Assembly: GCF_014647375.1 (NCBI RefSeq)
Contig: NZ_BMPB01000007.1
Location: 1 to 64,000, forward strand
Source of the DNA: Parabacteroides faecis
GTDB lineage: Bacteria > Bacteroidota > Bacteroidia > Bacteroidales > Tannerellaceae
Direction of reading: 5' to 3'
DNA length: 64,000 nt
The stretch's first letter is position 1. The number at the start of each line of letters is the position of its first letter. The notes under the pieces were generated by a model, which worked only from the letters and a program-made list of their open reading frames with translations, was not told the origin of the DNA and searched no databases. A program made the position numbers and the translations under genes. Of the stretch, positions 36,845 to 52,958 are shown one piece after another.

Positions 36845-37594
36845 CTAATTTAGAACTTTATGATGTTTAGACTGTTTTACAATCAAAATGCTAATCTCAT
36901 ACAATACCCACATCGGCAATGCAACCAGCGAGAGCGTGAACACGTCCGATGTCGGGGTAATAACCGCAGCGATTACGAGAACAATCACGACGGCGTGTTT
37001 CCGATAGTGGCGCATGAAATCCGCTGAAAGAAACCCCAACTTGGTGAACAGCCACGATAGTATCGGAATATCGAAAACAATGCCCATTGCAAGACACATC
37101 ATTACAAGTGTCGAGATATACGAATCGAGTGCGATCAGATTATCCACCTCGCCGCTCACCTGATAAGTTCCTAAAAAGCGGAATGTCAGCGGAAAGATCA
37201 AAAAGTCGCTGACGAGTACCCCCAGAGAGAACATCGCATAACCGCCTCCGACCATCCGCACTACATATCGTCGTTCATTATCATAGAGTGCCGGGGAAAC
37301 GAACCGGAACAACTGGTAGAGAATATAAGGCGAAGCGCACAGTACTCCGGCACATAGGGCTGTCTTCATGTGGATGATGAACTGCTGCGCCAGCCCCGTA
37401 TTGATAAGCCGTACGGAAAACGGTTCCACCGCACCTCCCGCCCATACCGCCATGCGGTCGAGCAGCCGGTAGGTAACGAATCCGTCGTCTTTCGGTGCAA
37501 GTACGATGGCGAACAATTCTTCCTTGAAACAGAACGCCGCGATGCCGAACACGACGGCTACGGCGACAATCTTCACGATTGCCACCCGCAGCAC
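36845..37594 (-). CDS. tatC: Sec-independent translocase TatC (N-terminal frameshift suspected)
   Basis: The protein has the six-helix TatC layout: an N-terminal segment at about 1-25, TALCAGVLCASPYILYQLFRF with the conserved loop (about 80-100), and VIVLVIAAVITPTSDVFTL near 205-225. It forms the receptor of the twin-arginine pathway. The listed start is a GTG. Upstream in the same frame the codons read CWEHLDV, the typical TatC N-terminus, but reach a stop without a start codon. An ATG at 37640, 4 bases after the tatA stop, opens the other frame through MVTGTHT. A 2-base loss in a CA repeat at about 37619-37626 would explain this. A protein from the GTG would lack only about ten residues. 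Two Tat substrates are encoded in the same operon. Confidence 0.8.
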   Translation of the reverse strand: MLRVAIVKIVAVAVVFGIAAFCFKEELFAIVLAPKDDGFVTYRLLDRMAVWAGGAVEPFSVRLINTGLAQQFIIHMKTALCAGVLCASPYILYQLFRFVSPALYDNERRYVVRMVGGGYAMFSLGVLVSDFLIFPLTFRFLGTYQVSGEVDNLIALDSYISTLVMMCLAMGIVFDIPILSWLFTKLGFLSADFMRHYRKHAVVIVLVIAAVITPTSDVFTLSLVALPMWVLYEISILIVKQSKHHKVLN

Positions 37595-37643
37595 ATCTAA
37601 ATGTTCCCAGCAAAGATTGTGTGTGCGTCCCCGTTACCATCGG

Positions 37644-37838
37644 TTATTTCTTTTGCTCGGTATCCTCAATCTCTTTTTCCACGCTGTTCATCCCCTCTTT
37701 GAAGGAACGCACGCCCTTACCGATTCCCTTCATTAGTTCGGGGATTTTTTTGCCGCCGAAAAACAGCAATACTACCAATACGATCAGTAGCACTTCCTGC
37801 ATACCGATACCGCCGATAAATAGTGGTGTCATCATCAT
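37644..37838 (-). CDS. tatA: Twin-arginine translocase subunit TatA/E
   Basis: The 64-residue protein has a short periplasmic N-terminus and a membrane helix (EVLLIVLVVLLFFG). The conserved FGGKKIPEL hinge follows, then an amphipathic helix (GIGKGVRSFKEGM) and an acidic tail. This is the complete TatA architecture; oligomers form the passage for folded proteins. Its ATG overlaps the stop of the upstream alcohol dehydrogenase-like gene, and tatC follows 4 bases later. It sits in an operon with two proteins that carry Tat signals, so it probably serves them specifically. Confidence 0.93.
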   Translation of the reverse strand: MMMTPLFIGGIGMQEVLLIVLVVLLFFGGKKIPELMKGIGKGVRSFKEGMNSVEKEIEDTEQKK

Positions 37839-38938
37839 TATTTGCGAATTAACCCGTTTATCATTTCAAAGATTTCATTTTCATCAAGTTCCGTATCGCA
37901 AGGAATACAGCCGACTTGTTCGTGGTTGATTATGCCATCGTAATACATATCCATCCCGAAATCGGAAAACAACGCTACCAGCTTCCTCGAAGATTCCTCT
38001 ATGGAAGAATCGAAACCGAATACGTCGAGATAGTATTTTCCGACATCCTCCGCATGGCGTTTTCCCATCGCTTCGAGGAATCTCGGAAAAATAGACGTCA
38101 GGCTTCTACGGTAAGAACTGCCGAATAACTTTTCCGGAAGAAATTCCAACTCGTAAATGTCGTATGCGTAAGCCTCCTCTTTTCCTATGCCCATTCTGGA
38201 CGAAGTGGAAAGAGATGCGCCCATCATAATAATACCTCTTGCATCAAGGTCATTCGGATTTTTCAGTAAAGTCTTCGTCGCTTCGAGTACGTTTTTGATA
38301 TAAGAAATTCCTGCATCGTAGGACATCCGGTTTTTGTCGCCCAAAATACACGCCGATAGTTGAACCAGTGTAACAAGTCCCGTATATGCGGTCATCTCTT
38401 TGTCTAAAGTCAGGGAATATTTGGGACAAAGAATAGCATAGTCGGCCGGTATGCCGTATGCCGTTCCGAAATCGTCCGTCTTCGAATCGACGGATACAGC
38501 CCCAAGTCCATTCTCCGAACCGCTGGACGGATAGGTCGGTATCAATACGAGCGGCAGTCGTTGCAGCCCGTAAGAAGGTTTCCCTTTCAGGTAATCCCAC
38601 AAATCGGATTCATGATAAAAGCCGAAAGCCATCAATTTGGCACTATCCATCACACTTGCGCCTCCGGCTCCGACAATCAGGGTTACGCCGTTGGACTTGG
38701 CAAACCGAATACCCTCTTGTATTTTGGAAAATTCCCTTGAAGAAGCTCCATATTCCACAAAATGAATGTCGGCATCGGTCAATGTTCGGATTATATCATC
38801 GTAGCACCCATTTCGTTTTACGGAACCGCTACCGTAAACAAACATCACTTTATGCCCTTTAGTCACTTCTGCGATAGTCTCCCGTATATCATTACGAAAG
38901 AGCAGTTTCGTATCGTTTCTGAAAATAAAATCTTTCAT
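37838..38938 (-). CDS. Iron-containing alcohol dehydrogenase family protein lacking metal ligands
   Basis: The 366-residue protein has the family's NAD(P) fold: VMFVYGSGSVKRNGCYDDI, LIVGAGGASVMDSAKLMA and LIPTYPSSGSENGLGAV. Helix pairs that normally carry one Asp and three His for Fe or Zn are replaced: GLVTLVQLSACILG stands where D-x3-H is expected, and YAYDIYELEFLP and YRRSLTSIFP lack the two later His. The cofactor site is present but the usual metal site is not, so it may be an inactive or repurposed dehydrogenase. It has no export signal, the only enzyme of this operon without one. It overlaps tatA and the reductase gene by 1 base each. Confidence 0.75.
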   Translation of the reverse strand: MKDFIFRNDTKLLFRNDIRETIAEVTKGHKVMFVYGSGSVKRNGCYDDIIRTLTDADIHFVEYGASSREFSKIQEGIRFAKSNGVTLIVGAGGASVMDSAKLMAFGFYHESDLWDYLKGKPSYGLQRLPLVLIPTYPSSGSENGLGAVSVDSKTDDFGTAYGIPADYAILCPKYSLTLDKEMTAYTGLVTLVQLSACILGDKNRMSYDAGISYIKNVLEATKTLLKNPNDLDARGIIMMGASLSTSSRMGIGKEEAYAYDIYELEFLPEKLFGSSYRRSLTSIFPRFLEAMGKRHAEDVGKYYLDVFGFDSSIEESSRKLVALFSDFGMDMYYDGIINHEQVGCIPCDTELDENEIFEMINGLIRK

Positions 38939-40350
38939 TATAATGTCTCTTGTTTAAGTTGTTCCACAAAGAAGTTTATTCGCTGCATTTGTGCCGGGAT
39001 ATTGATGCTTTGCGGGCAATGGTGTACGCATTGGTCGCAGCCGATGCAATGGTCGGCCTGCCGCAATTTCGGCACGGAACGGTCGTATCCGACGAGAAAT
39101 GTCCGTCGAGCTTTCCGATAATTCTCGTCCTGCGAAGAGACGGGAATATTCCCTTCGTTGATGCACTTATTGTAATGTGCGAATATGGCAGGAATATTCA
39201 ATCCGTATGGACAAGGCATACAATACTGGCAGGCGGTACAGGGAACCGACGGGTATTTCAGCATAGTCTGCGCCGTATCTTCCAAGACTGCCAACTCCTC
39301 TTCTGTACAAGGATCGAGCGGCGAGAAGGTACGGATATTGTCCTGCAAATGTTCCATATAGGTCATGCCGCTCAATACGGTCAATACCTTTGGAAACGAA
39401 CCCGCAAAACGAAATGCCCACGAAGCGATACTATCTTCCGGGCAACGCTGTTTGAGCCTGCCGTTCAGGTAGTTGGTCAGCGTGGTAAGTCTGCCGCCCA
39501 ACAGCGGCTCCATTACAATAGCCGGTATATCACGTTTCTCCAACTCGGCATAGAGGTATTCCGCGTTGAAATTCATACCTGAAGCGTGCCGGTAGTCCAT
39601 ATAGTTCAGTTGGATTTGTACAAAATCCCATTTGAACTCATCGTGTCGGGAGAGCAGGTAATCGAACACTTTCACATCCCCGTGATAGGAGAAACCCAAA
39701 TGCCGGATACGCCCCGCTTCCCGTTCTTTAAGCAGAAAGTCGAGCAGTCCGTTATCAAAAAAACGCTCCATCAAAAAAGGCATACCGCTCCCGATACCTA
39801 CTATATGGAGCAGGTAATAATCGAAGTAATCGGCCTGCAACTCCTCGAACGACCGGCGGTACATCTTTACCGAAGCATCGAACAGCTCTTCGGGAGACAA
39901 CCCTTGCCCGGCCAAACGGTGGTTCGACATCTTCGTTGCCAGATAGTACGAATTGCGCGGATGGCGCTTCAATGCTGTTCCGGTGGCTTTCTCTGAAAGC
40001 CCGCGACAATAGGGAGGAGCCGTATCGAAATAATTCACTCCATGCGCTAGGGCATAATCTACCAATCCGTTGACTGCTTCTTGGTCGATAACTTCTCCAG
40101 TTCCATCCGGCGACGGCATCATAGGCCAGCGCATACAGCCATAGCCGAGTAGCGAAATCTGCTCTCCCGTTTTCGGATCGATACGATAGGTCATCTTATC
40201 GGTCGGGACTTCGCCTTGTGCGCTACCTCCGGTTCCGGCATCCCGAAAGGAACATCCCGCAACCGTCGTTGCAGACACCGCAGTAACTCCGGCTCCCAAC
40301 CGCTTCAGGAACTCACGCCGGTCTATCCTATGTTTATCTGTTTTTTCCAT
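38938..40350 (-). CDS. Tat-exported aldo/keto reductase with C-terminal ferredoxin domain
   Basis: Residues 1-32 are a twin-arginine signal (DRREFLKRLGAGV) ending in a lipobox VAGC. An aldo/keto reductase barrel follows (GYGCMRWP, VDYALAHGVNYFDTAPPYC, then KMSNHRL and HLGFSYHG, about residues 65-340). A C-terminal 4Fe-4S module has CTACQYCMPCPYGLNIP and CIGCDQCVHHCPQSINIP (about 380-450). AKRs are normally cytosolic NADPH enzymes. The [4Fe-4S] fusion suggests electrons from the membrane polyferredoxin instead of, or besides, NADPH. The tatA and tatC genes lie two and three genes downstream. It follows the polyferredoxin gene by 14 bases. Confidence 0.88.
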   Translation of the reverse strand: MEKTDKHRIDRREFLKRLGAGVTAVSATTVAGCSFRDAGTGGSAQGEVPTDKMTYRIDPKTGEQISLLGYGCMRWPMMPSPDGTGEVIDQEAVNGLVDYALAHGVNYFDTAPPYCRGLSEKATGTALKRHPRNSYYLATKMSNHRLAGQGLSPEELFDASVKMYRRSFEELQADYFDYYLLHIVGIGSGMPFLMERFFDNGLLDFLLKEREAGRIRHLGFSYHGDVKVFDYLLSRHDEFKWDFVQIQLNYMDYRHASGMNFNAEYLYAELEKRDIPAIVMEPLLGGRLTTLTNYLNGRLKQRCPEDSIASWAFRFAGSFPKVLTVLSGMTYMEHLQDNIRTFSPLDPCTEEELAVLEDTAQTMLKYPSVPCTACQYCMPCPYGLNIPAIFAHYNKCINEGNIPVSSQDENYRKARRTFLVGYDRSVPKLRQADHCIGCDQCVHHCPQSINIPAQMQRINFFVEQLKQETL

Positions 40351-40364
40351 ACTGTTATCTGATT

Positions 40365-41864
40365 TTATATGATTCTATGGGCTTCGTGTCCCTCGACATA
40401 AATGGCACTGAACGGACGTGCCGGACACAGATTTTCACACGCACCGCACCCGATACACCGTTCGGTATCCACCATCGGTATCAAGGGCGAGAAATCATCG
40501 TCGGGGATGGAGGGTATCATCGAGATTGCTCCCGCCGGACAATGTCTGGCGCAATTACCGCATTGCACGCCGTCTGTCAGGACAACGCAATTCTCCTTTA
40601 CCCATACGGCATGGCCGATCTGTATAGCGGACTTTTCTTCAGCAGAAACCTTTCGGATTGCTCCAGCCGGGCAAACCTCCGAACATTTCGTACATTCGGG
40701 ACGACAATAACCGCGTTCATAAGAAAATTCCGGTTGCATAAGCGTTTCCAACCGGGAGGAAGGGCGCAGTACCCCGTTCGGGCAGACCGACACGCATAAC
40801 TGGCAGCCCGTGCAACGACGATTCATATTACACAGGCTACCTGCTCCGGGAGGGACAAGAGGTGTGGTGCGCTTCGGAATTTTCTTGTCGAGAATAACAG
40901 CCAGCCCGCCGTCCACATTCTTTTCCTGCGCTTTGGCCGCAGCAGTACCGAGAAGAAGAGCAACCCCGGTGAGGAAATGGCGTCGGGAAGGATTCTGTTC
41001 CTCTGTTTTAGATGATAGCACGGCTGCCCGTTCCCGTCGTCGGGTATAAGAGATGGCCCCGTGTTTGCAGGCATCGAGACAATCCATGCAAGCCACACAA
41101 CGCGAATGGTCTATCTCGTGATTCTTGTAGTCGATACAAGACGCCTTGCATTTTCGGGCGCACAAACTGCACGAGGTGCATTTCTTGGGATCAATGACCG
41201 GACGTAAAAGTGCATATTTCGAGAGCAAACCAAGTACAGTACCTACCGGACAAACCGTATTGCAGTAGGTACGTCCGTTACGCCATGTCAAGACAAATAA
41301 CAGGATACAAGTAACAATGGCTATAATGAATGTCGGCAGGCTTCTCATCCAGACCTCCGTTTCATAAAAGGTGTAACTTTCGGCTCTCTCGGCAAGGTAG
41401 GCCAAGAGGTTGTTTCCCCATCCATAAAACGGAGCCAGTAAATTTTGGGCAATCCGACCGTAAGCACTGTACGGAGCTATCAAGGCGACCAGCGAACCTG
41501 CGCCTGCTGCTATCGCCACGAGGAAAAGAGCCAATACGCCGTACCTGATTCCAGATTTTGCCGGAGAATAGGAAAAACGGTTTTTTCCTTTTTTACGCCG
41601 ACTGCCTACCCACGAAACAATATCCTGCATGACACCCAGCGGGCAGATGACGGAGCAATAAATGCGACCGAAAAGCAGTGTCAGCACAACGAGCAGAGCC
41701 ACGACACCTACATTCAAGGCCAGCAGAGCAGGTAAGAATTGTATTTTTGCCATCCATCCCATCCATGTATGCCACCCTCCCGTGAAGTCGAGAAACAGCA
41801 ACGTGACAGACACAAAAAAGATGATTGCCAGTATAGCCCTTATTTTCCGTAACATAGCTATCAT
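40365..41864 (-). CDS. Membrane polyferredoxin (NapH-like plus NapG-like fusion)
   Basis: The 499-residue protein starts with four membrane segments and the two Cys-motifs typical of NapH/YccM proteins: GRIYCSVICPLGVMQD (about 67) and GRTYCNTVCPVGTVLG (about 195). Two 4Fe-4S clusters follow (CTSCSLCARKCKASC, then CVACMDCLDACKHG). At about residue 293 an internal SRRHFLTGVALLLGTAA looks like a Tat-type signal, and four more clusters resemble NapG (CTGCQLCVSVCPNG, CTKCSEVCPAG, CGNCARHCPAG, CIGCGACENLCPA). It should carry electrons from quinol or a cytosolic donor across the membrane to periplasmic partners. Its ATG overlaps the stop of the upstream gene. Confidence 0.88.
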   Translation of the reverse strand: MIAMLRKIRAILAIIFFVSVTLLFLDFTGGWHTWMGWMAKIQFLPALLALNVGVVALLVVLTLLFGRIYCSVICPLGVMQDIVSWVGSRRKKGKNRFSYSPAKSGIRYGVLALFLVAIAAGAGSLVALIAPYSAYGRIAQNLLAPFYGWGNNLLAYLAERAESYTFYETEVWMRSLPTFIIAIVTCILLFVLTWRNGRTYCNTVCPVGTVLGLLSKYALLRPVIDPKKCTSCSLCARKCKASCIDYKNHEIDHSRCVACMDCLDACKHGAISYTRRRERAAVLSSKTEEQNPSRRHFLTGVALLLGTAAAKAQEKNVDGGLAVILDKKIPKRTTPLVPPGAGSLCNMNRRCTGCQLCVSVCPNGVLRPSSRLETLMQPEFSYERGYCRPECTKCSEVCPAGAIRKVSAEEKSAIQIGHAVWVKENCVVLTDGVQCGNCARHCPAGAISMIPSIPDDDFSPLIPMVDTERCIGCGACENLCPARPFSAIYVEGHEAHRII

Positions 41865-42997
41865 TTAAGGGTTTTCATATCTATCACATACCTGAATTTT
41901 ACATCTCCATCCACGACCTTCTGATAGGCTTCAGTAATCGTTTTTCCGTCAGCCGGAATAATTTCGACTTCGGGATAGATACCGTTGGCGACCGAATAGT
42001 CTAACATCTCCTGCGTCTCCTTGATTCCCCCAATCTGGGAACCGAAAATCTTGCGATTGGAGTTCATTACGATGGCATTTACCGGAATACTCGGCATATT
42101 GGCTGCCGAGGGGATTCCGACGATAGCGAGCTGACCGTCCAGCTTCAACATTTTCACATACATTACCGGATCATACTTGGCGGGAATGGTGGAGAGAATG
42201 AAATCGTATTGCTTGTTCAACCCTTGCAATTCATCGCTGTTGTTCACATTGACATAACGGGTAGCCCCCATGCGTGCGGCATCCGCACGTTTTGCTTCCG
42301 TTACATCGAATACGGTCACATCAGCTCCCAATTTCACAAGATACTGCACAGCCAAGTGTCCCAACCCGCCGAATCCGGCGACACCGACCTTATCACCTTT
42401 CTTGATACCTACATTACGGATAGGCGAATAGGTCGTGATTCCGGCGCAGAGTAGTGGCGCGACTTTTTCGATTTCGGCATTTGCCGGAATCTTGATGGCG
42501 AAGTCTTCCGCTACAACGTAGTTGTCGGAATAACCGCCCTGCGTCGGCTCGTTACCGTTATAGCGGTCTATGTCATGGTAGGTCATGATAGCCCCTTCCT
42601 CGCAATACTGCTCCAGATCATGTTCGCAAGCCTCGCAATGACGGCATGAACCGATCATGCACCCGATACCGGCATAGTCGCCTACCTTGAATTTCGTGAC
42701 GTTGCGGCCTACTTTCACCACACGTCCGGCAATCTCGTGTCCGGGAACCATCGGGTATTTTTCAGGCCCCCAATCCTCGCGGACATGGTGGATGTCGCTA
42801 TGACAGATACCCGCGTAGAGAATTTCAATCTGGATTTCATTATCGCCGACAGCGTGGCGGGTAAATGCGTATGGTTTGAACTGACCGTCGTTCTTGAAAA
42901 CGGCGAATCCTTTGGTCAGCACGCCTCCGACACATTGTGCCGAGGCTGTCATTGTGCATACTGTACACATAATTGCTAAAATGATATTTCGTTTCAT
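41861..42997 (-). CDS. Exported zinc-dependent alcohol dehydrogenase
   Basis: I start at ATG 42997 (MKRNIILAIMCTVCTMTASA), which gives a Sec signal peptide; an in-frame ATG at 43021 adds only 8 residues. The enzyme domain is of the cinnamyl-alcohol dehydrogenase/YahK type. GICHSDIHHV and VPGHEIAGRVVKVG bind the catalytic zinc, the four-Cys structural zinc lies in CRHCEACEHDLEQYC, and the NADP fold is at GVAGFGGLGHLAVQ. Members of this family are normally cytosolic NADP(H) enzymes, so a signal peptide is odd and implies a periplasmic form. It overlaps the polyferredoxin gene (ATGA) and follows a flavodoxin lipoprotein. Confidence 0.88.
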   Translation of the reverse strand: MKRNIILAIMCTVCTMTASAQCVGGVLTKGFAVFKNDGQFKPYAFTRHAVGDNEIQIEILYAGICHSDIHHVREDWGPEKYPMVPGHEIAGRVVKVGRNVTKFKVGDYAGIGCMIGSCRHCEACEHDLEQYCEEGAIMTYHDIDRYNGNEPTQGGYSDNYVVAEDFAIKIPANAEIEKVAPLLCAGITTYSPIRNVGIKKGDKVGVAGFGGLGHLAVQYLVKLGADVTVFDVTEAKRADAARMGATRYVNVNNSDELQGLNKQYDFILSTIPAKYDPVMYVKMLKLDGQLAIVGIPSAANMPSIPVNAIVMNSNRKIFGSQIGGIKETQEMLDYSVANGIYPEVEIIPADGKTITEAYQKVVDGDVKFRYVIDMKTLK

Positions 42998-43026
42998 ATT
43001 GATATTATTGCTTATTCTCATTGGTA

Positions 43027-43611
43027 TTATTGGATGATATGGATGTCGCGCAACCAACTTTCTACGCCACCGCCCGTATAGGTACGCAGATGAACCGAAG
43101 CGGGCGTCACCTCATGAATCTTGTCGATGGATTGCTGGAGATATTCTGTCGAGCCGTAAGTGAAGAACGGGATAACGATCTTACCTTCGAGGTCGTAGTT
43201 TTCGAGGAACGTACAGACGACCATTGCCGGATTGTGCCACCATATCGGCGAACCGACAAAAATCACATCGTATTCGTCGATATTTTCAGGCAGGTTGCCG
43301 ACACCGGGACGCAGGTTGTTGTACGATTCGTTCTGGATACGGTCGCTGTCGTCATAGGGATTCGAGGCATAAGGTTCGGACGCCTCGATACGATAAACGT
43401 CCGCACCGGTCGCCGCCACGATCTCCTCGGCTCTCCGCTGGGTATTGCCCGTAGCGGAAAAGTAAGCCACTAAAATTTTGCGGCTACCATCGTATTCGAT
43501 CTCATCGGAAGGATAATCCGTATCGAAATCATCCTTGTCACACGCGCTTGCCAGCGTCATTATAGCCAGTACCATAAATACATAATAAAAAAATGTTCGT
43601 TTCATAATCAT
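43027..43611 (-). CDS. Flavodoxin-like lipoprotein
   Basis: The N-terminus is a lipoprotein signal with lipobox LASAC (Cys 24). The rest is a flavodoxin fold: ILVAYFSATGNTQRRAEEI (FMN-phosphate loop), YDVIFVGSPIWWHNPAMVV and IVIPFFTYGSTEYLQQSI. It is similar to the flavodoxin at 45457-46182 over the whole domain. Flavodoxins move single electrons, here probably at the periplasmic face. It lies between the EFR1-like gene (13-base gap) and the exported alcohol dehydrogenase. Confidence 0.88.
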   Translation of the reverse strand: MIMKRTFFYYVFMVLAIMTLASACDKDDFDTDYPSDEIEYDGSRKILVAYFSATGNTQRRAEEIVAATGADVYRIEASEPYASNPYDDSDRIQNESYNNLRPGVGNLPENIDEYDVIFVGSPIWWHNPAMVVCTFLENYDLEGKIVIPFFTYGSTEYLQQSIDKIHEVTPASVHLRTYTGGGVESWLRDIHIIQ

Positions 43612-43624
43612 ATTGTTTTTGAAG

Positions 43625-44509: not shown

Positions 44510-44551
44510 ATTCGTATTAAAACTACTTGTTATTCATTTCTTTATCTGATG

Positions 44552-44708: not shown

Positions 44709-44734
44709 ATTGGATAGGTTTGAACCGTTATCAT

Positions 44735-45436
44735 TTATTCGGCCATTCCGATTCTTTTCAGCCAGTTCAAGACATTGGGTTTCGCTTCGCTGACACGGTC
44801 ACGGGGAATTGCATAACCATCCAACACGGAGGCTTTAGGCTCCAACTCCCGTATGGTCTTGATGGCATCCGAGAAACGGCTGCCGCCATGCGTACAGAAA
44901 GGGATAACGGTTTTACCACCGAAGTCGTATTCGTCGAAGAACGAGTATAGCGGCATCGGCATATCGTACCACCAGTTGGGGAATCCAATGAAGACCACAT
45001 CGTAGTCATTGAGATTTTTGATGTGTGTAGCCAGCTTTGGACGGGCATTGTTGTCTATCTCGACCTTTGCCGCATCGATCAATGCCTTATGCGAGCCGGG
45101 ATAGGTGTGTACGGTCTTTATCTCGAAAAGGTCGCTACCCGTAGCTTCCCCGATGACGGATGCGATGTATTGCGTATTCCCCATTACTTTACCATTGGAA
45201 ATAAGGCGGCTGGCTCCGGAAGAAGCATCCACTCCATCCGTTTCGGGAACGGAGAAATAAACCACCAAAGCTTTTCCTTTAGTATTTTGAGAAGTCGATT
45301 TTACTTGTTGCCCGGATAGGGATTGCGCTACATTTGTACTCTCCGATACGGTCTCGTTCCCGGCAGCCCAACAATAGGCCGTTATCGTACAAGCAATGAT
45401 TGCCAGTACACTCATTGTTATAATTCCTTTTTTCAT
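44735..45436 (-). CDS. Exported flavodoxin-family protein
   Basis: The 233-residue protein has a signal peptide (MKKGIITMSVLAIIACTITA) and a low-complexity linker. The flavodoxin domain follows: KALVVYFSVPETDGVDASSG, YDVVFIGFPNWWYDMPMPLY and TVIPFCTHGGSRFSDAIKTI. It is more like the WrbA/FldA-type flavodoxins of anaerobes than the two lipoprotein flavodoxins nearby. It is the last gene of the right redox operon, before a terminator. It probably serves as a periplasmic FMN electron carrier. Confidence 0.85.
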   Translation of the reverse strand: MKKGIITMSVLAIIACTITAYCWAAGNETVSESTNVAQSLSGQQVKSTSQNTKGKALVVYFSVPETDGVDASSGASRLISNGKVMGNTQYIASVIGEATGSDLFEIKTVHTYPGSHKALIDAAKVEIDNNARPKLATHIKNLNDYDVVFIGFPNWWYDMPMPLYSFFDEYDFGGKTVIPFCTHGGSRFSDAIKTIRELEPKASVLDGYAIPRDRVSEAKPNVLNWLKRIGMAE

Positions 45437-45456
45437 TCTTTACTTGTTTTATAAGT

Positions 45457-46182
45457 CTATTCAATAATTCCAATTCGACGCAACCAGCCTTCCGTACCGT
45501 TTGCACTGCCCGGCATATCAATACCCGCATCGTCGGGACGCCCCGGCGTCGTAATGTCGTCCGCATCGAGGTCTTCGGGAAGTGTTTCCGGAATATGCTT
45601 TGAGCCAGGTGTTACCTTATAAATTTTCTGCATGGATTCGTTCAGATAGGTAGTAGCTCCATAGGTAAAGAACGGAATGACAACCTTATCTTTCAAGTCG
45701 TATGCTTCGAGGAACGTGCAGACTACCATCGCAGGTTGATGCCACCAACAAGGCGAACCGACGAAAATCGTATCATATTTCGCAATCGTTTCCTCATCAA
45801 GCAGGTTCGCCACTCCGGGACGCAGGTCGTTGTAGGCTTCACGCTGGATGCGGTCGCTGTCATCGTAAGGATTTGCGGCATACGGTTCGGCAGCCTCAAT
45901 CCGATGGATGTCAGCACCCGTAAGCTCCACGATTCGTTCCGCTACGGCCCCGGTGTGTCCTTCAGCGGAGAAGTAAACCACAAGCATATTGCCGTTCCCG
46001 GACGGAGTATTGGGTTCATCTGGGTTAGTCGGATTTTCAAAATCATCGGGATTTTCTTCATCGCCCGGTTCTTCGGGAGTGGAGGGTTGCTCCGTTGGCG
46101 ACATAGGATCATCATCGGGAGAACAAGCGGCCATAGTCGTCAGAGAAAGAAGCAAGAGTGGAATAAAAAGTAACTTTTTCAT
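45457..46182 (-). CDS. Flavodoxin-like lipoprotein with Pro/Glu-rich linker
   Basis: MKKLLFIPLLLLSLTTMAAC is a lipoprotein signal (lipobox TMAAC). A Pro/Glu/Asp-rich spacer follows (about residues 22-65), then a flavodoxin domain with MLVVYFSAEGHTGAVAERIV, YDTIFVGSPCWWHQPAMVV and VVIPFFTYGATTYLNESM. The last 40 residues end in EGWLRRIGIIE, as in the other two flavodoxins. The spacer would hold the domain away from the membrane. It lies 22 bases after the cupin gene and 20 before the third flavodoxin. Confidence 0.87.
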   Translation of the reverse strand: MKKLLFIPLLLLSLTTMAACSPDDDPMSPTEQPSTPEEPGDEENPDDFENPTNPDEPNTPSGNGNMLVVYFSAEGHTGAVAERIVELTGADIHRIEAAEPYAANPYDDSDRIQREAYNDLRPGVANLLDEETIAKYDTIFVGSPCWWHQPAMVVCTFLEAYDLKDKVVIPFFTYGATTYLNESMQKIYKVTPGSKHIPETLPEDLDADDITTPGRPDDAGIDMPGSANGTEGWLRRIGIIE

Positions 46183-46203
46183 ATTCAGTCTGTTCTTTGA
46201 TGT

Positions 46204-46689
46204 TTATTTATTGTTATACTCTTTTTCGGTTACGGGAGCATACCACTGGGTAGTACCCAAATGAACCTTTGTATTGATTGCTATATGCGTGAATCCGCTG
46301 TCGGAAGCCGCCCCGTGCCAATGCACCACGTCTGCCGGAATAGCGACCACGTCACCGGGATTCAAAACTTGTATGGGTTTCCCCTTTTCCTGATAGTAAC
46401 CTTTTCCGGCAGTGGCGATCAGAATCTGGCCGCCCGGATGCGAGTGCCAACTGTTTCGGGCTTTCGGCTCGAATATCACGTCGGACACTACTACATCGAA
46501 TGTTTCACTGTCGGTCATCAACCGTTGGAGGTAGGCCGTACCGTTGAAATTAGCACCTTCAATGACATTTCCTTTGGGAAAGATGGAAGAGGATGTGGCA
46601 GGCTGGATTGTTTCAACCTTGTTTTCCGGTTTCGGGGTACAGGCACCGAGTGCTGCAACCAGTAAAAATAAGCAAGTTATCTTTTTCAT
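46204..46689 (-). CDS. Cupin-domain lipoprotein
   Basis: The signal MKKITCLFLLVAALGAC carries a lipobox. The 120-residue core is a single cupin: FEPKARNSWHSHPGGQILIA (metal His-x-His and Glu/Gln) and PGDVVAIPADVVHWHGA. This resembles cupins fused to or found beside carboxymuconolactone decarboxylases in Bacteroides. It is downstream (9-base gap) of a CMD-hydrolase fusion gene in the same operon. It may bind a metal and a small substrate; the reaction is unknown. Confidence 0.85.
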   Translation of the reverse strand: MKKITCLFLLVAALGACTPKPENKVETIQPATSSSIFPKGNVIEGANFNGTAYLQRLMTDSETFDVVVSDVIFEPKARNSWHSHPGGQILIATAGKGYYQEKGKPIQVLNPGDVVAIPADVVHWHGAASDSGFTHIAINTKVHLGTTQWYAPVTEKEYNNK

Positions 46690-46698
46690 ATCGAATCG

Positions 46699-48390
46699 TT
46701 ATTTTAGATATTGTTTGAAGAAAGCGTCCAGTTTCGGAATCGTGATTTTCAGATATTTCGGCTGGTCGTACAAATCCACGTGCGTTGCTTCGGGAACGAC
46801 GAACAATTCTTTCGGTTCGGCAGCTTTCTCGTATGCGTCTTCCGAGAAATATTTCGACACCGCATTTTCTCCCACGATGAAAAGCACAGGACGTGGAGAT
46901 ATGGTCTCAATTTGCGCGAACGGGAAGAAGTTCATCATCGGCGCAAGGCTCGTGTAAGAGTAATAACCCGTAGAGTTGGGGTGCTGCCCGCGCTGCGGAT
47001 TGTCGTAATAATCGAGGAAATCGATGGCAAACTTCGGCGTGTTCTCATCTACCTTTTCGGGCAGGGCGCGAATATCCCGACGTGTGGCTCCACCGTATTC
47101 CGCCGTGCGCTGACGACCGATCTCATCGAGAATCGCCATACGCTGCTCGTAGGTCTGCGTGTCGCCCACACCCTGACGGCGGGCACGTCCCATGTCGTAC
47201 ATACTGATGGTGGCAAGAGCCTTGATACGATGGTCTATCTGCGTAGCACTGACAGAGTAACATCCCCCGCCACAGATACCGATTACACCTATCTTATCTG
47301 CATCGACCGCCTGATGATTCGAGAGGAAATCGACTGCCGCGCTGAAATCTTCCACCCTTACTTCAGGTGATTCCATGCGACGCGGGTAACCGCCGCTCTC
47401 ACCGTAATAGGACGCATCGAACGCCAATGTCACATAACCCATTTCCGCCAGAAGGCGGGCATGAAGTCCTGAAGTCTGCTCCTTGACACCACCGAAAGGA
47501 TGCCCGACGATGATGGCGGCATATTTCTTTGCAGGGTCATAACCAGCAGGCAGATAAAGGTCGCCTGCAATGTCAATCAGAAAGCGGTTATGGAACGTAA
47601 CTTTCTGTTTCTTCACGCCATTCTCGACTGTCTCGACCGGTGTTTCCGGGTTGGCGATCAATCCTTTGCTTTGCAACAATTCGTTCAAAACCAGTCTGCC
47701 GCCATCGGCTTCGCTGCGTCCGACGTGCTTTTCGACTATAGCCAGCACACCGCGCAGTTCATCCGGTGTCACGCCGACATTCAGCGCGATACCCATGTGT
47801 CCTTTCAGCATTGGTTCTACGCCTTTGCCCAAAGAGGCGATGACGGCGACGGTCGTCAACTCCCGTTCGGCATAGGTCAATACATCCCGTTCGAAAAGGT
47901 CAGCAAAGAGGTGTTCTTTGAGGAATACCTCGATTTCCGGAGCCAGTACTGCATAGTCGGCTTTCGGTGCATCTGCCGGAACGCCCGAAATTTCTGCGAG
48001 AATGTCGCGTCCGCGCTCGTACTTACGGCGGGTATCGGTTATCGGCGACGCTTCGCGTCCCCAATCGTCTTCGATACCTTCTGCCTTACGCTCGTCGAGT
48101 ACCGCAACTAATGTTTGCAGTCCGCGCAGGGCACGGGGAAAACCGCAATAGGCGTAGGCATGTACCATCACTTCTTTCAGCTCACCGACGGTCATGCCGT
48201 CATTCAACCCGTCCGTGAGGACGGGTTTCAGTTTGTCGAGGTCTCCCGTACTCGTAAGGGCTGCGACCTCTGCAATGTGTTGTCGTTTACTGTCCATAGC
48301 TTGTTCTGCTTTCGGTGTTTGAGAGTCTGCGATTCCGCATCCGAAAAAAACACCGAATAGGGTTGTCATAATTTTTAATTTTATTTTCAT
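46699..48390 (-). CDS. Exported carboxymuconolactone decarboxylase / dienelactone hydrolase-type fusion
   Basis: I start at ATG 48390 (MKIKLKIMTTLFGVFFGC), which gives a lipoprotein-type signal; earlier in-frame ATGs precede it without benefit. Two CMD-type repeats occupy about residues 30-250: LNDGMTVGELKEVMVHAYAY, and TTVAVIASLGKGVEPMLKGH lacking the usual CxxC. An alpha/beta hydrolase follows (about 275-563): YAAIIVGHPFGGVKEQTSGL, and the nucleophile elbow IGICGGGCYS with Cys instead of Ser, as in dienelactone hydrolases. It heads the right operon under the shared operator. A degradation or detoxification role at the cell envelope is inferred. Confidence 0.82.
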   Translation of the reverse strand: MKIKLKIMTTLFGVFFGCGIADSQTPKAEQAMDSKRQHIAEVAALTSTGDLDKLKPVLTDGLNDGMTVGELKEVMVHAYAYCGFPRALRGLQTLVAVLDERKAEGIEDDWGREASPITDTRRKYERGRDILAEISGVPADAPKADYAVLAPEIEVFLKEHLFADLFERDVLTYAERELTTVAVIASLGKGVEPMLKGHMGIALNVGVTPDELRGVLAIVEKHVGRSEADGGRLVLNELLQSKGLIANPETPVETVENGVKKQKVTFHNRFLIDIAGDLYLPAGYDPAKKYAAIIVGHPFGGVKEQTSGLHARLLAEMGYVTLAFDASYYGESGGYPRRMESPEVRVEDFSAAVDFLSNHQAVDADKIGVIGICGGGCYSVSATQIDHRIKALATISMYDMGRARRQGVGDTQTYEQRMAILDEIGRQRTAEYGGATRRDIRALPEKVDENTPKFAIDFLDYYDNPQRGQHPNSTGYYSYTSLAPMMNFFPFAQIETISPRPVLFIVGENAVSKYFSEDAYEKAAEPKELFVVPEATHVDLYDQPKYLKITIPKLDAFFKQYLK

Positions 48391-48426
48391 AATCTCTATC
48401 ATTTTATTTATCTGTTTTACCTGATG

Positions 48427-48495
48427 CAAAATTAGGCTGGAATTTTCGCCCCGACCTATCACGAATTACGGTTTGAAGGATAATTATTACGGTTT
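48427..48495 (-). promoter_or_regulatory. Promoter and operator of the right redox operon
   Basis: The minus-strand -7 element TAATTTTG is at 48427-48434 and the 33-bp operator (GAATTACGGTTT ... ATTATTACGGTTT) at 48463-48495. The spacing of 28 bases equals that at 44.6 and 49.1 kb. Confidence 0.8.
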
Positions 48496-48502
48496 TTATA
48501 GT

Positions 48503-49015
48503 TCACTGACTGCAAAAACGTACACAGTAATTGAGTAGCAATTCGATATGCGAAGCGATGATCGTTGCGCTATGCCGGTCGATGGCATGGTGCAACTCTT
48601 CTCCGATTTCCCGCAGATTATCGGTTATGATTCTCCTTTCGTGCTCCGACAATGCGCCCTTACAGCAGCAGCGTTTCGGATAGGTCTCGATACGGTTTTC
48701 AAGCGATGTGTCGCATAACAGATCGGGATGAAACAACACACCCGAATAGTATCCGGTATGTCGATGCCGGTTCGAGGGTATTTCAACCGTTTCGCCGGGA
48801 TAAACCAGTCGTAGCCACTCTTTTTCAGATGCTTTTTCTTGCTCTGAATCGTTGTAATACAACAGCCCGTAAAAATTGCACATCATCCGAATATCCTCGG
48901 TCAGATTTGCTTTTGACAAATCGACCATGCAGATCAACGGATGCAGTGTTTCATGTCCCGTCAATTTATTGAACTTATCAATGGTCATAAGTCCCGAATT
49001 ATTCATTTGTATCAT
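48503..49015 (-). CDS. Stand-alone AraC-type sensor domain (no HTH)
   Basis: The 170-residue protein aligns with residues 1-185 of the full AraC regulator encoded divergently at 49160: GETVEIPSNRHRHTGYYSGV, LFHPDLLCDTSLENRI, and SATIIASHIELLLNYCVRF. It stops where the other protein continues with RQFITRKK and its DNA-binding domain. No remnant of the HTH follows. It may be a decayed regulator, or a natural trans-acting sensor that pairs with the full-length protein. It has its own copy of the operator and promoter, which argues for use rather than decay. Confidence 0.7.
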   Translation of the reverse strand: MIQMNNSGLMTIDKFNKLTGHETLHPLICMVDLSKANLTEDIRMMCNFYGLLYYNDSEQEKASEKEWLRLVYPGETVEIPSNRHRHTGYYSGVLFHPDLLCDTSLENRIETYPKRCCCKGALSEHERRIITDNLREIGEELHHAIDRHSATIIASHIELLLNYCVRFCSQ

Positions 49016-49046
49016 TGTTCTTTCTTTTATTCAGTTTTCCACGATG

Positions 49047-49115
49047 CAAAATTACAGGTTGTCCGAGTGCTTCATAGGGTATGAATTACGGTTTCATGTA
49101 TAATTATTACAGATT
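49047..49115 (-). promoter_or_regulatory. Divergent operator between the sensor and AraC genes
   Basis: The -7 element TAATTTTG is at 49047-49054 (minus strand) and the 33-bp operator (GAATTACGGTTT ... ATTATTACAGATT) at 49083-49115. The spacing is 28 bases as at the other two sites. The operator also lies 27 bases before the rightward TACATTTG element, so it can control both genes. Confidence 0.8.
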
Positions 49116-49141
49116 GGAACCGATAAGCCAAAGATATTTTC

Positions 49142-49149
49142 TACATTTG
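49142..49149 (+). promoter_or_regulatory. -7 element of the AraC gene
   Basis: TACATTTG matches TAnnTTTG. Transcription would start near 49155, so ATG 49175 (MEKIMQLK) is a realistic alternative to ATG 49160. Confidence 0.5.
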
Positions 49150-49159
49150 CATAGAAACA

Positions 49160-50077
49160 ATGAAAGAGACTGTTATGGAGAAGATTATGCAACTGAAAAC
49201 GATAAAGGAGTACAATGATTACATGGGTGTGGAAACGAGGCATCCGTTGGTCAGCGTCATCGAAGGAAGCCGTATGCCGCACCCTGTACCCCATGCACGC
49301 AAGCACGTGGGAATGTATGTGGTCTTCCTGAAAGAATTACGGTGTACGGACGATTTGACCTATGGCCGACGCTCCTACGATTTTCAAGAAAATACGTTGG
49401 TGTTTATCGCTCCGGGGCAAGTGTTCGGACATGAAGCCGACGGAACAACTTTTACTGGTTCGGGCTGGTGTCTGCTGTTCCATCCCGACTTGCTGCGGGG
49501 CACGCCGCTCGGCCGCCATATGCAGGATTATACTTTTTTCTCCTATGCCGCCAATGAAGCGTTGCACCTCTCCAAGCAGGAGCAGCAGACCGTCATCGAC
49601 TGTCTGACAAAAATCGACGAGGAGACATATGACAAGGCAGATCGCCACAGCAACCTGATTATCGCTTCTGCCATCGAATTGTTGCTCAACTATTGCATCC
49701 GTTTCTATGACCGACAATTCATTACCCGCAAAAAAGAGAACAAGGATACGCTCGGTTCTTTCGAAGCCTTGCTGAATGACTATTTCATTTCGGATAAACC
49801 CTCTAAATTCGGTACACCAACCGTTGCTTATTGTGCTGACCAGTTGCATCTGTCTGCGAATTATTTCGGAGATTTGATTAAAAAAGAGACCGGTTTATCT
49901 GCACAAGAATATATATTGGCAAAAACAATGGATACAGCAAAAGAGCTGCTTGCCGATCCTACAAAATCTGTCAGTGATGTGGCTTATGCTTTGGGGTATC
50001 AATATCCGCAGTATTTCAGCAAGGCTTTCAAGCGTGTCGTGGGATGTTCGCCGAATGAATACAGAAAATTAAATTAA
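49160..50077 (+). CDS. AraC-family regulator, likely controller of the redox regulon
   Basis: The 305-residue protein has an N-terminal cupin-like sensor (LVFIAPGQVFGHEADG, then LFHPDLLRGTPLGRHM) and a C-terminal double helix-turn-helix: VAYCADQLHLSANYFGDLIK, then SVSDVAYALGYQYPQYFSKA and FKRVVGCSPNEYRKLN. It is transcribed away from a lone sensor homologue, with the shared 33-bp operator between. The same operator lies before both redox operons, so this protein is the best candidate activator. The inducer is unknown. A partial copy of its HTH end is found at 52988-53144. Confidence 0.88.
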   Translation: MKETVMEKIMQLKTIKEYNDYMGVETRHPLVSVIEGSRMPHPVPHARKHVGMYVVFLKELRCTDDLTYGRRSYDFQENTLVFIAPGQVFGHEADGTTFTGSGWCLLFHPDLLRGTPLGRHMQDYTFFSYAANEALHLSKQEQQTVIDCLTKIDEETYDKADRHSNLIIASAIELLLNYCIRFYDRQFITRKKENKDTLGSFEALLNDYFISDKPSKFGTPTVAYCADQLHLSANYFGDLIKKETGLSAQEYILAKTMDTAKELLADPTKSVSDVAYALGYQYPQYFSKAFKRVVGCSPNEYRKLN

Positions 50078-50161
50078 CTTATAAATAGCTATGTAATAAT
50101 TGATTAAGAAAAAATACTTATGATTCTTCCTTTAGCATTCATCTTGTTACCGACATAATAA

Positions 50162-51019
50162 TCATTTTTCTTCGCTAATAGGTAAATGTGTATCGCAATA
50201 CTTCTTTCTATATTGCAAAGGAGTCATATTATGATATTGCTGAAACAACTTGTTCAAGTAGCACGGGTCGGTATAGCCCATTCTGTTTGAAATCTCTTTA
50301 ATGCTCATTTGAGTGCCGACAAGCATGTCTTCCACCGTTTTCAATCTGCTTTTTTGGATGTACTGTTTGAAATCCTCTCCAAAATTCCGTTTAAAGAAAC
50401 GTCCTGCATAAGTGGGGGAAAGGTGAAATTTTTCAGCCACAATATTCAATTTCAGGAGTTCGGGCTGGTGGATATGCTGCCTGATGTATTTTAGCATATA
50501 CTGTGCCTTGCTACTGTCCGCATTATCATGCTCCGGGGCCAATGTGGAAAGATTTCTTACAGCAAGCACAATGACACTGTTCACGTAGTAGTTCAGCAGA
50601 TAGCCCGACATCATTTTCTTTTCAGATACCTCCCTGACAATTAGTTCAATCAAACTGTGAAGCATTTCCGCATCACTCTGTTGAAATCGGATACAGTATC
50701 CGGCTTGTATGTCGAGAGCCCCTTCAGCATATCTGTTTATATAATCGGTCACATAATTCTCCGTGAACCGGATAAACAAATAACGACTATGTGAACAAGT
50801 CCGAAACAGGTGAACTCTATTGGGCGGTATCAGGCATAAGTCGGCGGCACAATAGTTATGATGTTCTTCCCCGCCATTTACGGAATTGACAACAAAACTT
50901 CCGGTACCTTCCAGAATATAAGCCATTTCGAAAAAAGAATGCTGGTGCTCTCCAATCGGAAATGTATCGTGCTCCCTTAAAAGTATTTCAACCGGCTGAT
51001 ATAGATTTTCTTTCCACAT
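50162..51019 (-). CDS. AraC-family transcriptional regulator (cupin type)
   Basis: The 285-residue protein starts with an AraC cupin domain (DTFPIGEHQHSFFEMAYILE, then CLIPPNRVHLFRT) and ends with the double HTH (KLNIVAEKFHLSPTYAGRFF, then MSIKEISNRMGYTDPCYLNK and YHNMTPLQYRKKY). It is divergent from the exported SDR and EamA genes, with a 50-base promoter gap. It probably regulates those two genes rather than the operators further left, which are of a different sequence. Confidence 0.9.
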   Translation of the reverse strand: MWKENLYQPVEILLREHDTFPIGEHQHSFFEMAYILEGTGSFVVNSVNGGEEHHNYCAADLCLIPPNRVHLFRTCSHSRYLFIRFTENYVTDYINRYAEGALDIQAGYCIRFQQSDAEMLHSLIELIVREVSEKKMMSGYLLNYYVNSVIVLAVRNLSTLAPEHDNADSSKAQYMLKYIRQHIHQPELLKLNIVAEKFHLSPTYAGRFFKRNFGEDFKQYIQKSRLKTVEDMLVGTQMSIKEISNRMGYTDPCYLNKLFQQYHNMTPLQYRKKYCDTHLPISEEK

Positions 51020-51044
51020 AGCTTATTTTTCCATGTTTATGGTA

Positions 51045-51085
51045 CAAAAATACAATAATCTTCATTTCCATGACATTTAACTTTG
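51045..51085. promoter_or_regulatory. Divergent promoters of AraC and SDR genes
   Basis: Leftward -7 element TATTTTTG (minus strand, 51045-51052) and rightward TAACTTTG (51078-51085). The rightward element places transcription start after the ATG at 51070, so the SDR must start at 51103. Confidence 0.55.
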
Positions 51086-51102
51086 CACAAAAAAACAGAA
51101 AC

Positions 51103-51981
51103 ATGAGAATATTAAAATTTATAGTAACATTTATTTTACTTATGGGAAGTGTATCTAATAGTTTAGCACAAGTATCTTCAGGAAGGCTGAAAGATAAAGT
51201 TGCAATTGTAACGGGAGCTGCATCCGGCAATGGAAAGGCAATAGCTGTCTTATTCGCCAATGAGGGAGCAAAAGTTATTCTGGCAGACATCAACGGTATA
51301 GAAGTAAGGAAGATTGCAGACACGTTGCAACAAAACCAATCGGACGTTATACCGGTTGAAGTGGATGTAACCAGAGAAGATGATGTACAGCGGATGATAA
51401 ACTCGGCTTTAGAGCGATTTGGACGGATTGATATTCTGGTAAACAATGCCGGAGTTTTTGATGAACTTCTTCCGGCAGGCGAGGTCAGCGATGAGATTTG
51501 GGACAGAGTGATTTCTACAAATCTTACAGCGCCGATGCGTGGAATCCGTGCTGTTATTCCTGTATTTGAAAAACAAGGAGGAGGAGTCATTGTGAATACA
51601 GCTTCCATTGCCGGCTTTACGGGAGCAAGGGGTGGAGGGGCAGCCTACGTCGCCTCCAAGCATGGCCTGATAGGACTGACAAAAAATGTGGCATTTAATT
51701 ATAAGGACAAGAATATCCGTTGTAATGCGGTGGCACCGGGCAGAGTCGAGACAAACCTGCGGGTAAACAGTGAGAACTTAATCGGATCAAAAACGGCTCA
51801 TGACAAATCCATTGATAATTGGAGAGACATCGAGACCAAAGTTTCGGAAGGTTATATCACTAATATGCGGAAATGCACTCCTGATGAGATAGCCAAAGTT
51901 GTACTTTTTCTGGCATCTGACGAGGCCTCTTTTGTCAACGGTTCCATATTTGTAGCAGACGGAGGTTGGACTTCTTATTAA
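51103..51981 (+). CDS. Exported short-chain dehydrogenase/reductase
   Basis: I start at ATG 51103 (MRILKFIVTFILLMGSVSNS), downstream of the TAACTTTG promoter; this gives a Sec signal peptide ending near SLAQ. The 265-residue SDR domain is classical: VAIVTGAASGNGKAIA (NAD-binding TGxxxGxG), ILVNNAGVF, the catalytic Ser in TASIAGFTG, AAYVASKHGLIG (YxxxK), and the C-terminal FVNGSIFVADGGWTSY. SDRs are normally cytosolic NAD(P) enzymes, so this is a further export-tagged dehydrogenase of the block. The EamA gene follows 17 bases later. The substrate is unknown. Confidence 0.88.
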   Translation: MRILKFIVTFILLMGSVSNSLAQVSSGRLKDKVAIVTGAASGNGKAIAVLFANEGAKVILADINGIEVRKIADTLQQNQSDVIPVEVDVTREDDVQRMINSALERFGRIDILVNNAGVFDELLPAGEVSDEIWDRVISTNLTAPMRGIRAVIPVFEKQGGGVIVNTASIAGFTGARGGGAAYVASKHGLIGLTKNVAFNYKDKNIRCNAVAPGRVETNLRVNSENLIGSKTAHDKSIDNWRDIETKVSEGYITNMRKCTPDEIAKVVLFLASDEASFVNGSIFVADGGWTSY

Positions 51982-51998
51982 AGACATAACAATAGCAT

Positions 51999-52958
51999 AT
52001 GGAAAAGATTTGTTGGAAAGGACATGCCGCCATGTTCGGGGCAAATGCCATGTGGGGGTTGATGTCTCCCATATCCAAATTTATCATGTTGGGAGGAGCT
52101 GTTACGCCTCTTGTCGTAACTGATTTACGTATCGGGGGTGCGATGGTTCTCTTCTGGATAGCTTCTTTTTTTCAAAAACCGGAACATGTCAGCCATAAGG
52201 ACTTGGCAAGCCTGTTTGTTGCCGCCCTTTTAGGTATTGTATTCAATCAAGGTTGTTTCATATTCGGTGTCAGTCTAAGCTCACCCGGTGATGCCTCCAT
52301 TATTACTACCAGTATGCCTCTATGGGCTATGGTACTGGCTGCATTGATACTGAAAGAGCCCATTACGGGCAAGAAGGTGCTGGGCATTGCGGCCGGAGCG
52401 AGCGGTGCATTGCTGCTGATACTCGGAAACGGGCAGCATGAGCAAGGAGCATCGGCAGCAACCGCGGGTGGCACAATGATATGGGGCGATTTGCTGGTGT
52501 TGCTGGCACAGTTCTGCTATGCCCTTTACATCGTATTGTATAAGGATTTCGTGAATAAATATTCGCTGGTGACCATTATGAAGTGGATGTTCACCTATTC
52601 GTTCATATGTGTCCTTCCGTTTTCAGCCGGCAGCCTGATGCGTACAGATTGGAGCAGCCTGCATCTTCCCGAACTGGGTGGCTTGTCCTTTATTGTCGTG
52701 GGAGCTACCTTCATCAGCTACATGCTGATTGTGGTCGGACAGAAGAATCTCCGTCCCACCGTGGCGGGTATGTACAACTATATCCAACCACTTGTTGCCT
52801 GCATTGTTGCCGTTTGTTGGGGTATGGACTCTTTCAATTTCATCAAGGGCATGGCTGTTATCTTCATTTTCGGTGGTGTCTATCTGGTTACTTCGAGCCG
52901 GAGCAGGAAGGAACTGGAGTCCTATAAAGCTATACGTACAAAGGAAAAAGTCGGATGA
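51999..52958 (+). CDS. EamA/DMT-family transporter
   Basis: The 319-residue protein has ten membrane segments in two EamA repeats: GANAMWGLMSPISKFIMLGG and TTSMPLWAMVLAALILKEPI in the first, SLVTIMKWMFTYSFICVLPF and PTVAGMYNYIQPLVACIVAV in the second. The loop around residues 150-160 (HEQGASAATAGG) separates them. Such proteins export metabolites or amino acids, or exchange drugs, at the inner membrane. It follows the exported SDR gene, so a substrate or product of that enzyme is a plausible cargo. It is intact. Confidence 0.9.
   Translation: MEKICWKGHAAMFGANAMWGLMSPISKFIMLGGAVTPLVVTDLRIGGAMVLFWIASFFQKPEHVSHKDLASLFVAALLGIVFNQGCFIFGVSLSSPGDASIITTSMPLWAMVLAALILKEPITGKKVLGIAAGASGALLLILGNGQHEQGASAATAGGTMIWGDLLVLLAQFCYALYIVLYKDFVNKYSLVTIMKWMFTYSFICVLPFSAGSLMRTDWSSLHLPELGGLSFIVVGATFISYMLIVVGQKNLRPTVAGMYNYIQPLVACIVAVCWGMDSFNFIKGMAVIFIFGGVYLVTSSRSRKELESYKAIRTKEKVG

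Follow-up and report, generated by a model that had tools for sequence, protein, structure and literature searches.

A candidate inducible redox system outside the cytoplasm, encoded on a genomic island of Parabacteroides faecis

Why would a gut bacterium encode, side by side, a set of redox enzymes that are normally cytosolic and yet carry signals for export? This question is raised by the first 64,000 nucleotides of contig NZ_BMPB01000007.1 of Parabacteroides faecis (assembly GCF_014647375.1), the stretch that we refer to as the window, in which a first-pass annotation had described a mobile island of such export-tagged enzymes. Our domain scans, which took in 20 window proteins, recovered the genes that it had named: a zinc alcohol dehydrogenase (Zn-ADH), an SDR, an aldo/keto reductase with ferredoxin motifs (AKR), an EFR1 family protein, three flavodoxins, a CMD-hydrolase fusion, a cupin, a membrane polyferredoxin, TatA and TatC (Table 1). 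Comparing this locus with 295 genomes of the order and 39 genomes of the genus, we conclude that the set of exported redox enzymes exists and shows more order than the first-pass annotation had described, that its parts belong to known families, and that its electron conduit is of a known type. We found no description of this gene set, of the operator and regulon described below, or of an exported NAD-type ADH in the open-access literature that we searched.

We read export signals from the N termini by eye and with one crude rule, using no trained predictor. By eye, AKR (RREFL, then VAGC) and EFR1 (RREAL, then ITSC) appear to be Tat lipoproteins, the cupin and the flavodoxins at 45457-46182 and 43027-43611 Sec lipoproteins, and Zn-ADH, the SDR, the CMD-hydrolase and the flavodoxin at 44735-45436 Sec-secreted proteins. 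The crude rule called 9 of the 10 soluble enzymes exported, compared with 35 of 99 background open reading frames (ORFs) of the same genome (binomial P 6e-4); this background consisted of non-polytopic ORFs of at least 150 aa and included genes of other redox loci. The claim of export tagging thus holds for nine enzymes, but the tenth, an iron-containing alcohol dehydrogenase (Fe-ADH) homologue omitted from the first-pass annotation, has no signal. Such rule-based calls are rough, and one of the three Tat calls in the background (L163, 15926-16810) looks false. The rule also called the window's CMD-hydrolase a lipoprotein, as had been proposed earlier. We set this assignment aside in favor of a Sec signal, as homologues at three loci (L013, L075 and L076) have plain Sec signals ending in AQ; the homologue in G339 retains the same Cys as the window copy.

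Conservation of the signals among homologues argues for export more strongly than does this count against the background. All 37 N termini of AKR homologues compared have an arginine pair, 34 of them in its strict form, and 20 of the 37 have a strict lipobox, with a Cys recognizable by eye at that position in all rows except L118 and L119. These signals are conserved across rows that are 52-79% identical. The Tat arginine pair of EFR1 is likewise present in all six close Bacteroidales rows, and of 29 rows of flavodoxin relatives, 23 (among them the three from the window) received a Sec or lipoprotein call; six, some of them fragments, received none.

The Zn-ADH is informative in a different way. 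We found 13 rows of homologues in 11 of the 295 genomes, and a Sec signal is common to four of these: the window protein, two proteins in G105 and one in G133. All four exported proteins have the sequence VTVFD[VI][TS]E in the nucleotide-binding fold, while its Asp is found in none of the nine relatives that lack a signal, which have Ser or Thr instead. An Asp at this cofactor-site position favors NAD over NADP. Of the ligand motifs, we compared the one with the structural Cys and those with the catalytic Cys, His and Glu, and all 13 rows have them. Together, these patterns suggest selection on an exported, NAD-type enzyme rather than decay of a cytosolic one. The best NCBIfam match of the window protein is the NADPH-dependent aldehyde reductase Ahr (NF047908), from which it differs by its score (262.7 of 470 bits), its Sec signal and the Asp that replaces Ser or Thr.

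The first-pass annotation had also proposed a periplasmic electron chain, from a quinol or cytosolic donor through the polyferredoxin to flavodoxins and ferredoxins and on to terminal reductases. The polyferredoxin turned out to suit such a role better than had been recognized. It matches NapH and then NapG, in the domain order and with the cluster motifs of the NapGH quinol dehydrogenase, although as a single polypeptide, below both equivalog cut-offs (75.8 of 234 and 70.3 of 269) and with no nap reductase among the scanned genes. Four strong hydrophobic segments and the motifs at C229/C256 are followed by SRRHFL, a weak hydrophobic stretch and further Cys motifs. The weak stretch, a fifth transmembrane (TM) segment directly preceded by the arginine pair, has a mean KD of 1.29 over 17 aa, compared with 2.43-2.80 over 19 aa for TM1-4. 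Across 38 rows of best-matching loci, which count one gene twice and take in the window's own, the residues before TM5 are RR in 37 and KR in the remaining one, with a strict RRxFL in 26; by a crude count, four or five segments precede the motif. A NapH-NapG fusion of the same build, with four TM segments and a fifth of low hydrophobicity preceded by RR, is known as the MLMS-1 polyferredoxin, and reporters fused to that protein were moved by Tat, according to the experiments on it in Tooke et al. (2017; PMC5449189). From its sequence, we therefore assign the window polyferredoxin to the dual Sec/Tat type, as a NapH-NapG fusion with an internal Tat motif and a predicted conduit to the periplasm. 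Unlike the MLMS-1 protein, it is paired with a Tat-exported AKR, at some loci under a shared operator, and its Tat dependence is a prediction.

This pairing is widespread. A polyferredoxin relative at E<=1e-80 is present in 131 of the 295 genomes, and an AKR with a Tat signal adjoins the polyferredoxin in 36 of the 38 best-matching loci, the other two having no AKR row within the short stretch examined. TatC lies within 10 kb in 11 of the 48 genomes with a polyferredoxin copy at least 52% identical, a proximity that, by expectation rather than calculation, is far above chance. The polyferredoxin and AKR are thus a common module of the order, of which EFR1 is a rarer third member; all three occur together at L014, L073 and L074. 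Among 36 AKR rows (one gene counted twice), R11, R12, F14, nine Cys, and D109, Y114, K140 and H182 are invariant, the last four forming the catalytic D-Y-K-H tetrad. S221, Q247 and N338 of the NADP(H) pocket are also invariant, and S-Y stands in place of the usual S-N pair. AKR is probably functional and exported in folded form; it may draw on NADP(H) carried along or on electrons from its own clusters. At L169 (7720-10316), the same genome also encodes a more distant polyferredoxin, beside a 327-aa protein with a Tat-like N terminus.

Are these genes expressed together? Co-regulation had been an assumption, and three matching operator-promoter units now lend it support. The sequence CYGTAAT-N14-CYGTAAT (ATTACRG-N14-ATTACRG) occurs at 44590, 48465 and 49085, and in the genus genomes we counted 77 sites in 27 of the 39, compared with 8 for a reversed control pattern. 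In 44 of 64 distinct sites, TAnnTTTG, the Bacteroides -7 box, lies exactly 30 nt downstream; no other offset reached more than 2 on that side or 4 on the opposite side. These 64 sites were picked by the operator alone, although redox genes were the original reason for including several of the loci. The -7 box stands at this fixed spacing in all three window promoters. In the order, the composite of operator and -7 box gave 20 exact sites in 12 of the 295 genomes and none for the control. Six of the 20 are in this genome, which encodes seven full-length AraC-type relatives (counting the window's), and each of the six lies no more than 5 kb from one of these; in long loci an AraC-type relative lies within 6 kb of 15 of 24 composite sites.

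A loose first-gene rule, an ORF of at least 80 aa starting within 320 nt after the site, was satisfied by all 53 distinct composite sites. The first genes encode CMD or its hydrolase part (15 sites), polyferredoxin (5), cupin, flavodoxin, AKR and Fe-ADH (2 each), EFR1 and the sensor domain (1 each), and other proteins (23). Ten of these 23 were scanned and comprised two FMN reductases, a DUF362 protein, a metallo-beta-lactamase fold, an alpha/beta hydrolase, a cyclophilin-like protein, a DUF3737 protein, a DUF418 protein, a hexapeptide protein and one without a match. An operator with a -7 box at fixed spacing, before three promoters here and before redox genes elsewhere, probably defines an AraC regulon, in which the AraC-type protein would bind the operator. 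Between this regulator and the CMD-hydrolase lies a 170-aa stand-alone sensor gene with 8 Cys, which is a real gene and not a remnant given its conserved length in G339 (170 aa) and G333 (169 aa) and its constraint (Table 1); its product could tune the activator. The SDR and EamA genes fall outside the shared control: the pair adjoins an AraC gene of its own, with no copy of the operator beside it. The HTH-encoding part of the regulon's AraC gene (49160-50077) recurs in decayed form at 52984-53166, which hints at insertion or rearrangement, and at L160 an RND-type efflux set, recognized by ORF appearance only, lies near operator sites.

The explanation that we favor, although we would put the case for it no higher than the case against, is that the island encodes an inducible extracytoplasmic redox system by which reactive or foreign compounds would be transformed or detoxified. 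The AraC-type activator would sense chemical stress and turn on the operons. The polyferredoxin would draw electrons from menaquinol or a cytosolic donor, and its NapG-like clusters would hand them to the Tat-exported EFR1 and AKR, which would reduce a carbonyl, a quinone or another electrophile. Zn-ADH, the CMD-hydrolase and the cupin would handle related compounds, and two of the flavodoxins may act at the cell surface. A more general proposal, which we advance tentatively and with less confidence, is that Bacteroidales share an extracytoplasmic reduction system with a NapH-NapG and Tat-AKR core, an AraC operator regulon of rigid 30-nt spacing in several families, and islands that recruit cytosolic enzymes fitted with signals and retuned to NAD. 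If these proposals are correct, it would become possible to test directly how gut Bacteroides deal with drugs, bile products, aldehydes and oxidants outside the cytoplasm, many Bacteroidales would have a conserved conduit to the periplasm with an exported reductase as its partner, and the exact operator would provide a list of target genes. The exported NAD-type Zn-ADH would in turn raise the question of NAD(H) outside the inner membrane.

Several observations weigh against the detoxification explanation. Its substrate, inducer, electron donor and electron direction are all inferred. Zn-ADH and the SDR depend on NAD(H), which would have to be supplied outside the membrane, and Sec substrates cannot carry a bound cofactor; the earlier suggestion that flavin or Fe-S reduction might replace NAD(P) is unsupported for these two enzymes, whose nucleotide motifs are intact. 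Comparison with homologues, proposed in the first-pass annotation as a check on the signals, gave a mixed outcome. AKR, the polyferredoxin and close EFR1 relatives keep them, but nine Zn-ADH relatives at 41-46% identity have none, the match to EFR1 relatives in G096, G120 and G185 begins only at residues 40-44, and the sole other SDR at E<=1e-50 among the 295 genomes lacks a signal, its match beginning at residue 39. We accordingly rejected the idea of exported SDR relatives elsewhere; less similar SDRs without a signal also exist. EFR1 itself is rare: 8 of the 295 genomes have it at E<=1e-30, and in 5 of these the identity is near 50% or higher. We found the exact composite motif in 12 genomes, compared with 131 for the polyferredoxin, so that regulon membership is unsupported for most polyferredoxin copies; for 9 of the 24 composite sites in long loci, the nearest 6 kb contain no AraC-type relative; and 20 of the 53 first genes are unexported by the crude rule, while 4 of the 33 called exported are polyferredoxins.

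The single periplasmic chain also becomes doubtful once the flavodoxins are considered. The surface-export motifs published for B. fragilis (SDDDD) and C. canimorsus (C-X-K-(D/E)2-X) are given in PMC5080379, and two of the window flavodoxins have a comparable acidic motif right after the lipid Cys (C-SPDDD and C-DKDDF). A loose acidic rule was passed by 10 of 12 lipoprotein flavodoxin rows. AKR (C-SFRDA) and the cupin (C-TPKPE) do not fit the motif, and in EFR1 (C-TEEKK) basic residues follow two acidic ones, an ambiguous pattern. If the motifs work, these two flavodoxins would be on the cell surface and could not be simple partners of an inner-membrane donor.

The notion of a dedicated TatA/TatC likewise stands in part: both genes are present, but tatC (36845-37640) is interrupted near its start. 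Its frame opens only at the GTG at 37594, and the upstream ATG lies in another frame. Longer island-type copies of TatC exist in G339, G362 and G173, while tatC is two ORFs in G327 and a fragment in G105. A core TatAC is encoded elsewhere in the same genome, and the exported proteins may use that one.

We considered three other explanations for the locus. Electrons could flow in the opposite direction, with Zn-ADH, the SDR and the CMD-hydrolase oxidizing or cleaving an alcohol, lactone or aromatic compound in the periplasm and the polyferredoxin passing electrons inward to menaquinone. The Asp in all four exported Zn-ADHs suggests use of NAD+, and the CMD-hydrolase fusion has weak matches, below the cut-offs, to lactonase and PcaCD families. 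However, the regulon's first genes elsewhere include flavodoxins, FMN reductases, Fe-ADHs and AKRs, which suit reduction or a stress response rather than oxidative catabolism, and we recognized no catabolic pathway among the nearby genes scanned. We regard this explanation as unlikely, if still the strongest competitor of detoxification. Slightly less probable again is envelope repair, in which electrons from the polyferredoxin would mend oxidized or electrophile-damaged envelope proteins or cofactors. MsrPQ works by the same logic of a membrane electron donor and a Tat-exported redox partner, and is named in Tooke et al. (PMC5449189); the Cys-rich stand-alone sensor would also fit. However, none of the 20 scanned proteins matched the MsrPQ families, and none was assigned to a methionine sulfoxide reductase or thioredoxin-like family. 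Finally, most of the signals could be spurious, and the enzymes could detoxify aldehydes in the cytosol as an ordinary set like YqhD/DkgA. This accords with the signal-less homologues of Zn-ADH and the SDR and with their intact NAD(P) motifs, but it is very improbable in view of the conserved AKR signals, the group of four signal-bearing Zn-ADHs and the combinations of Tat motif and lipobox.

Table 1. Coordinates of the genes, regulatory sites and island in the window, with the basis for each assignment.
Feature	Position	Strand	Basis or remark
TatC	36845..37594	-	PF00902, 198.8 bits; sole start of the frame is a GTG; interrupted at its start when compared with homologues
TatA	37644..37838	-	PF02416
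Fe-ADH-like protein, no signal, usual metal ligands absent	37838..38938	-	Domain search, N terminus, ligand comparison
AKR, Tat lipoprotein, C-terminal [4Fe-4S] motifs	38938..40350	-	D109, Y114, K140, H182 intact
NapH-NapG-type polyferredoxin	40365..41864	-	4 TM; Fe-S motifs on the cytosolic side; SRRHFL as internal Tat motif; further Cys motifs
Zn-ADH, Sec signal (start inside ORF)	41861..43057	-	NAD-type Asp (VTVFD)
Flavodoxin lipoprotein, C-DKDDF, surface-export-like	43027..43611	-	Domain search and N terminus
EFR1 family flavodoxin-ferredoxin, Tat lipoprotein	43625..44509	-	NF038196, 183 bits, cut-off 75
Operator and -7 box, upstream of EFR1	44552..44617	-	Pattern search
Flavodoxin, Sec signal, PRK06934 family	44735..45436	-	NF005389, 221.8 bits, cut-off 172
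Flavodoxin lipoprotein, C-SPDDD, surface-export-like	45457..46182	-	Domain search and N terminus
Cupin lipoprotein	46204..46689	-	PF07883; N terminus
CMD and alpha/beta hydrolase fusion, Sec signal	46699..48402	-	ORF opens at 48462, likely start 48402
Operator and -7 box, upstream of CMD-hydrolase	48427..48492	-	Pattern search
Stand-alone AraC-type sensor domain without HTH	48503..49015	-	dN 0.057, dS 0.549 against G339; no Pfam match
Operator and -7 box, between AraC-type regulator and stand-alone sensor gene	49047..49112	-	Pattern search
AraC-type regulator of regulon (putative binding)	49160..50077	+	PF12833; relatives beside sites
Second AraC-type regulator, separate module	50162..51019	-	Domain search
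SDR, Sec signal, separate module	51070..51981	+	Domain search and N terminus
EamA transporter, separate module	51999..52958	+	PF00892
Genomic island	16621..57919 (outer bounds against G337; 19228-57900 against G362)	.	Comparison with two relatives

Among the remaining enzymes, EFR1 passes the NF038196 cut-off and has the two four-Cys clusters of that flavodoxin-like, 2[4Fe-4S] family; its Tat lipoprotein signal sets it apart from plasmid and Lachnospiraceae relatives, which match the mature part only. Spread of EFR1 on plasmids was considered and rejected, the six plasmid records being from Paraclostridium and Ilyobacter at 36-38% identity. We found no viral contigs encoding the polyferredoxin. 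The cupin scores 122.7 bits against the mandelonitrile-lyase cupin model (NF049940), below its curated cut-off of 140 bits. The Fe-ADH homologue, together with a 79% identical relative in G327, lacks the D/H/H/H metal ligands of YqhD-type iron-containing ADHs, and it scores 80.4 of 645 against NF011717, short of a YqhD-type assignment; all four ligands are present in 6 of 7 paralogues compared and three of the four in the seventh, at L163. It is possible that this protein is a pseudoenzyme shared with G327.

All of these genes sit inside a genomic island of the 6.66-Mb host genome. Matches to G337 stop at window position 16620 and resume at 57920, and on the G337 contig these two points fall on the same base, as at an empty site. 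G362 is collinear with the window as far as 19227 and from 57901 onward, and these two parts are separated by about 4.7 kb of other DNA. These boundaries bear out the island itself, whose present mobility is putative: it encodes an integrase and two RteC-type genes, a combination used to recognize CTnDOT-type conjugative elements, along with a ParB-type gene, while no transfer or mobilization genes were found in the subset of island ORFs that was scanned. At the island edge, a pair of 300-nt direct repeats, 90% identical, lies at 17708-18490. A locus in G336 (L070), 93-97% identical, is likely a deletion derivative of the island that keeps pieces of the flavodoxin region, the AraC end, the second AraC-type gene and EamA; the SDR is absent. 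The island also encodes a CBASS-type defense system at 24124-28841, with CapP, CapH, a SAVED/HNH effector, a cyclase and an E2-like protein.

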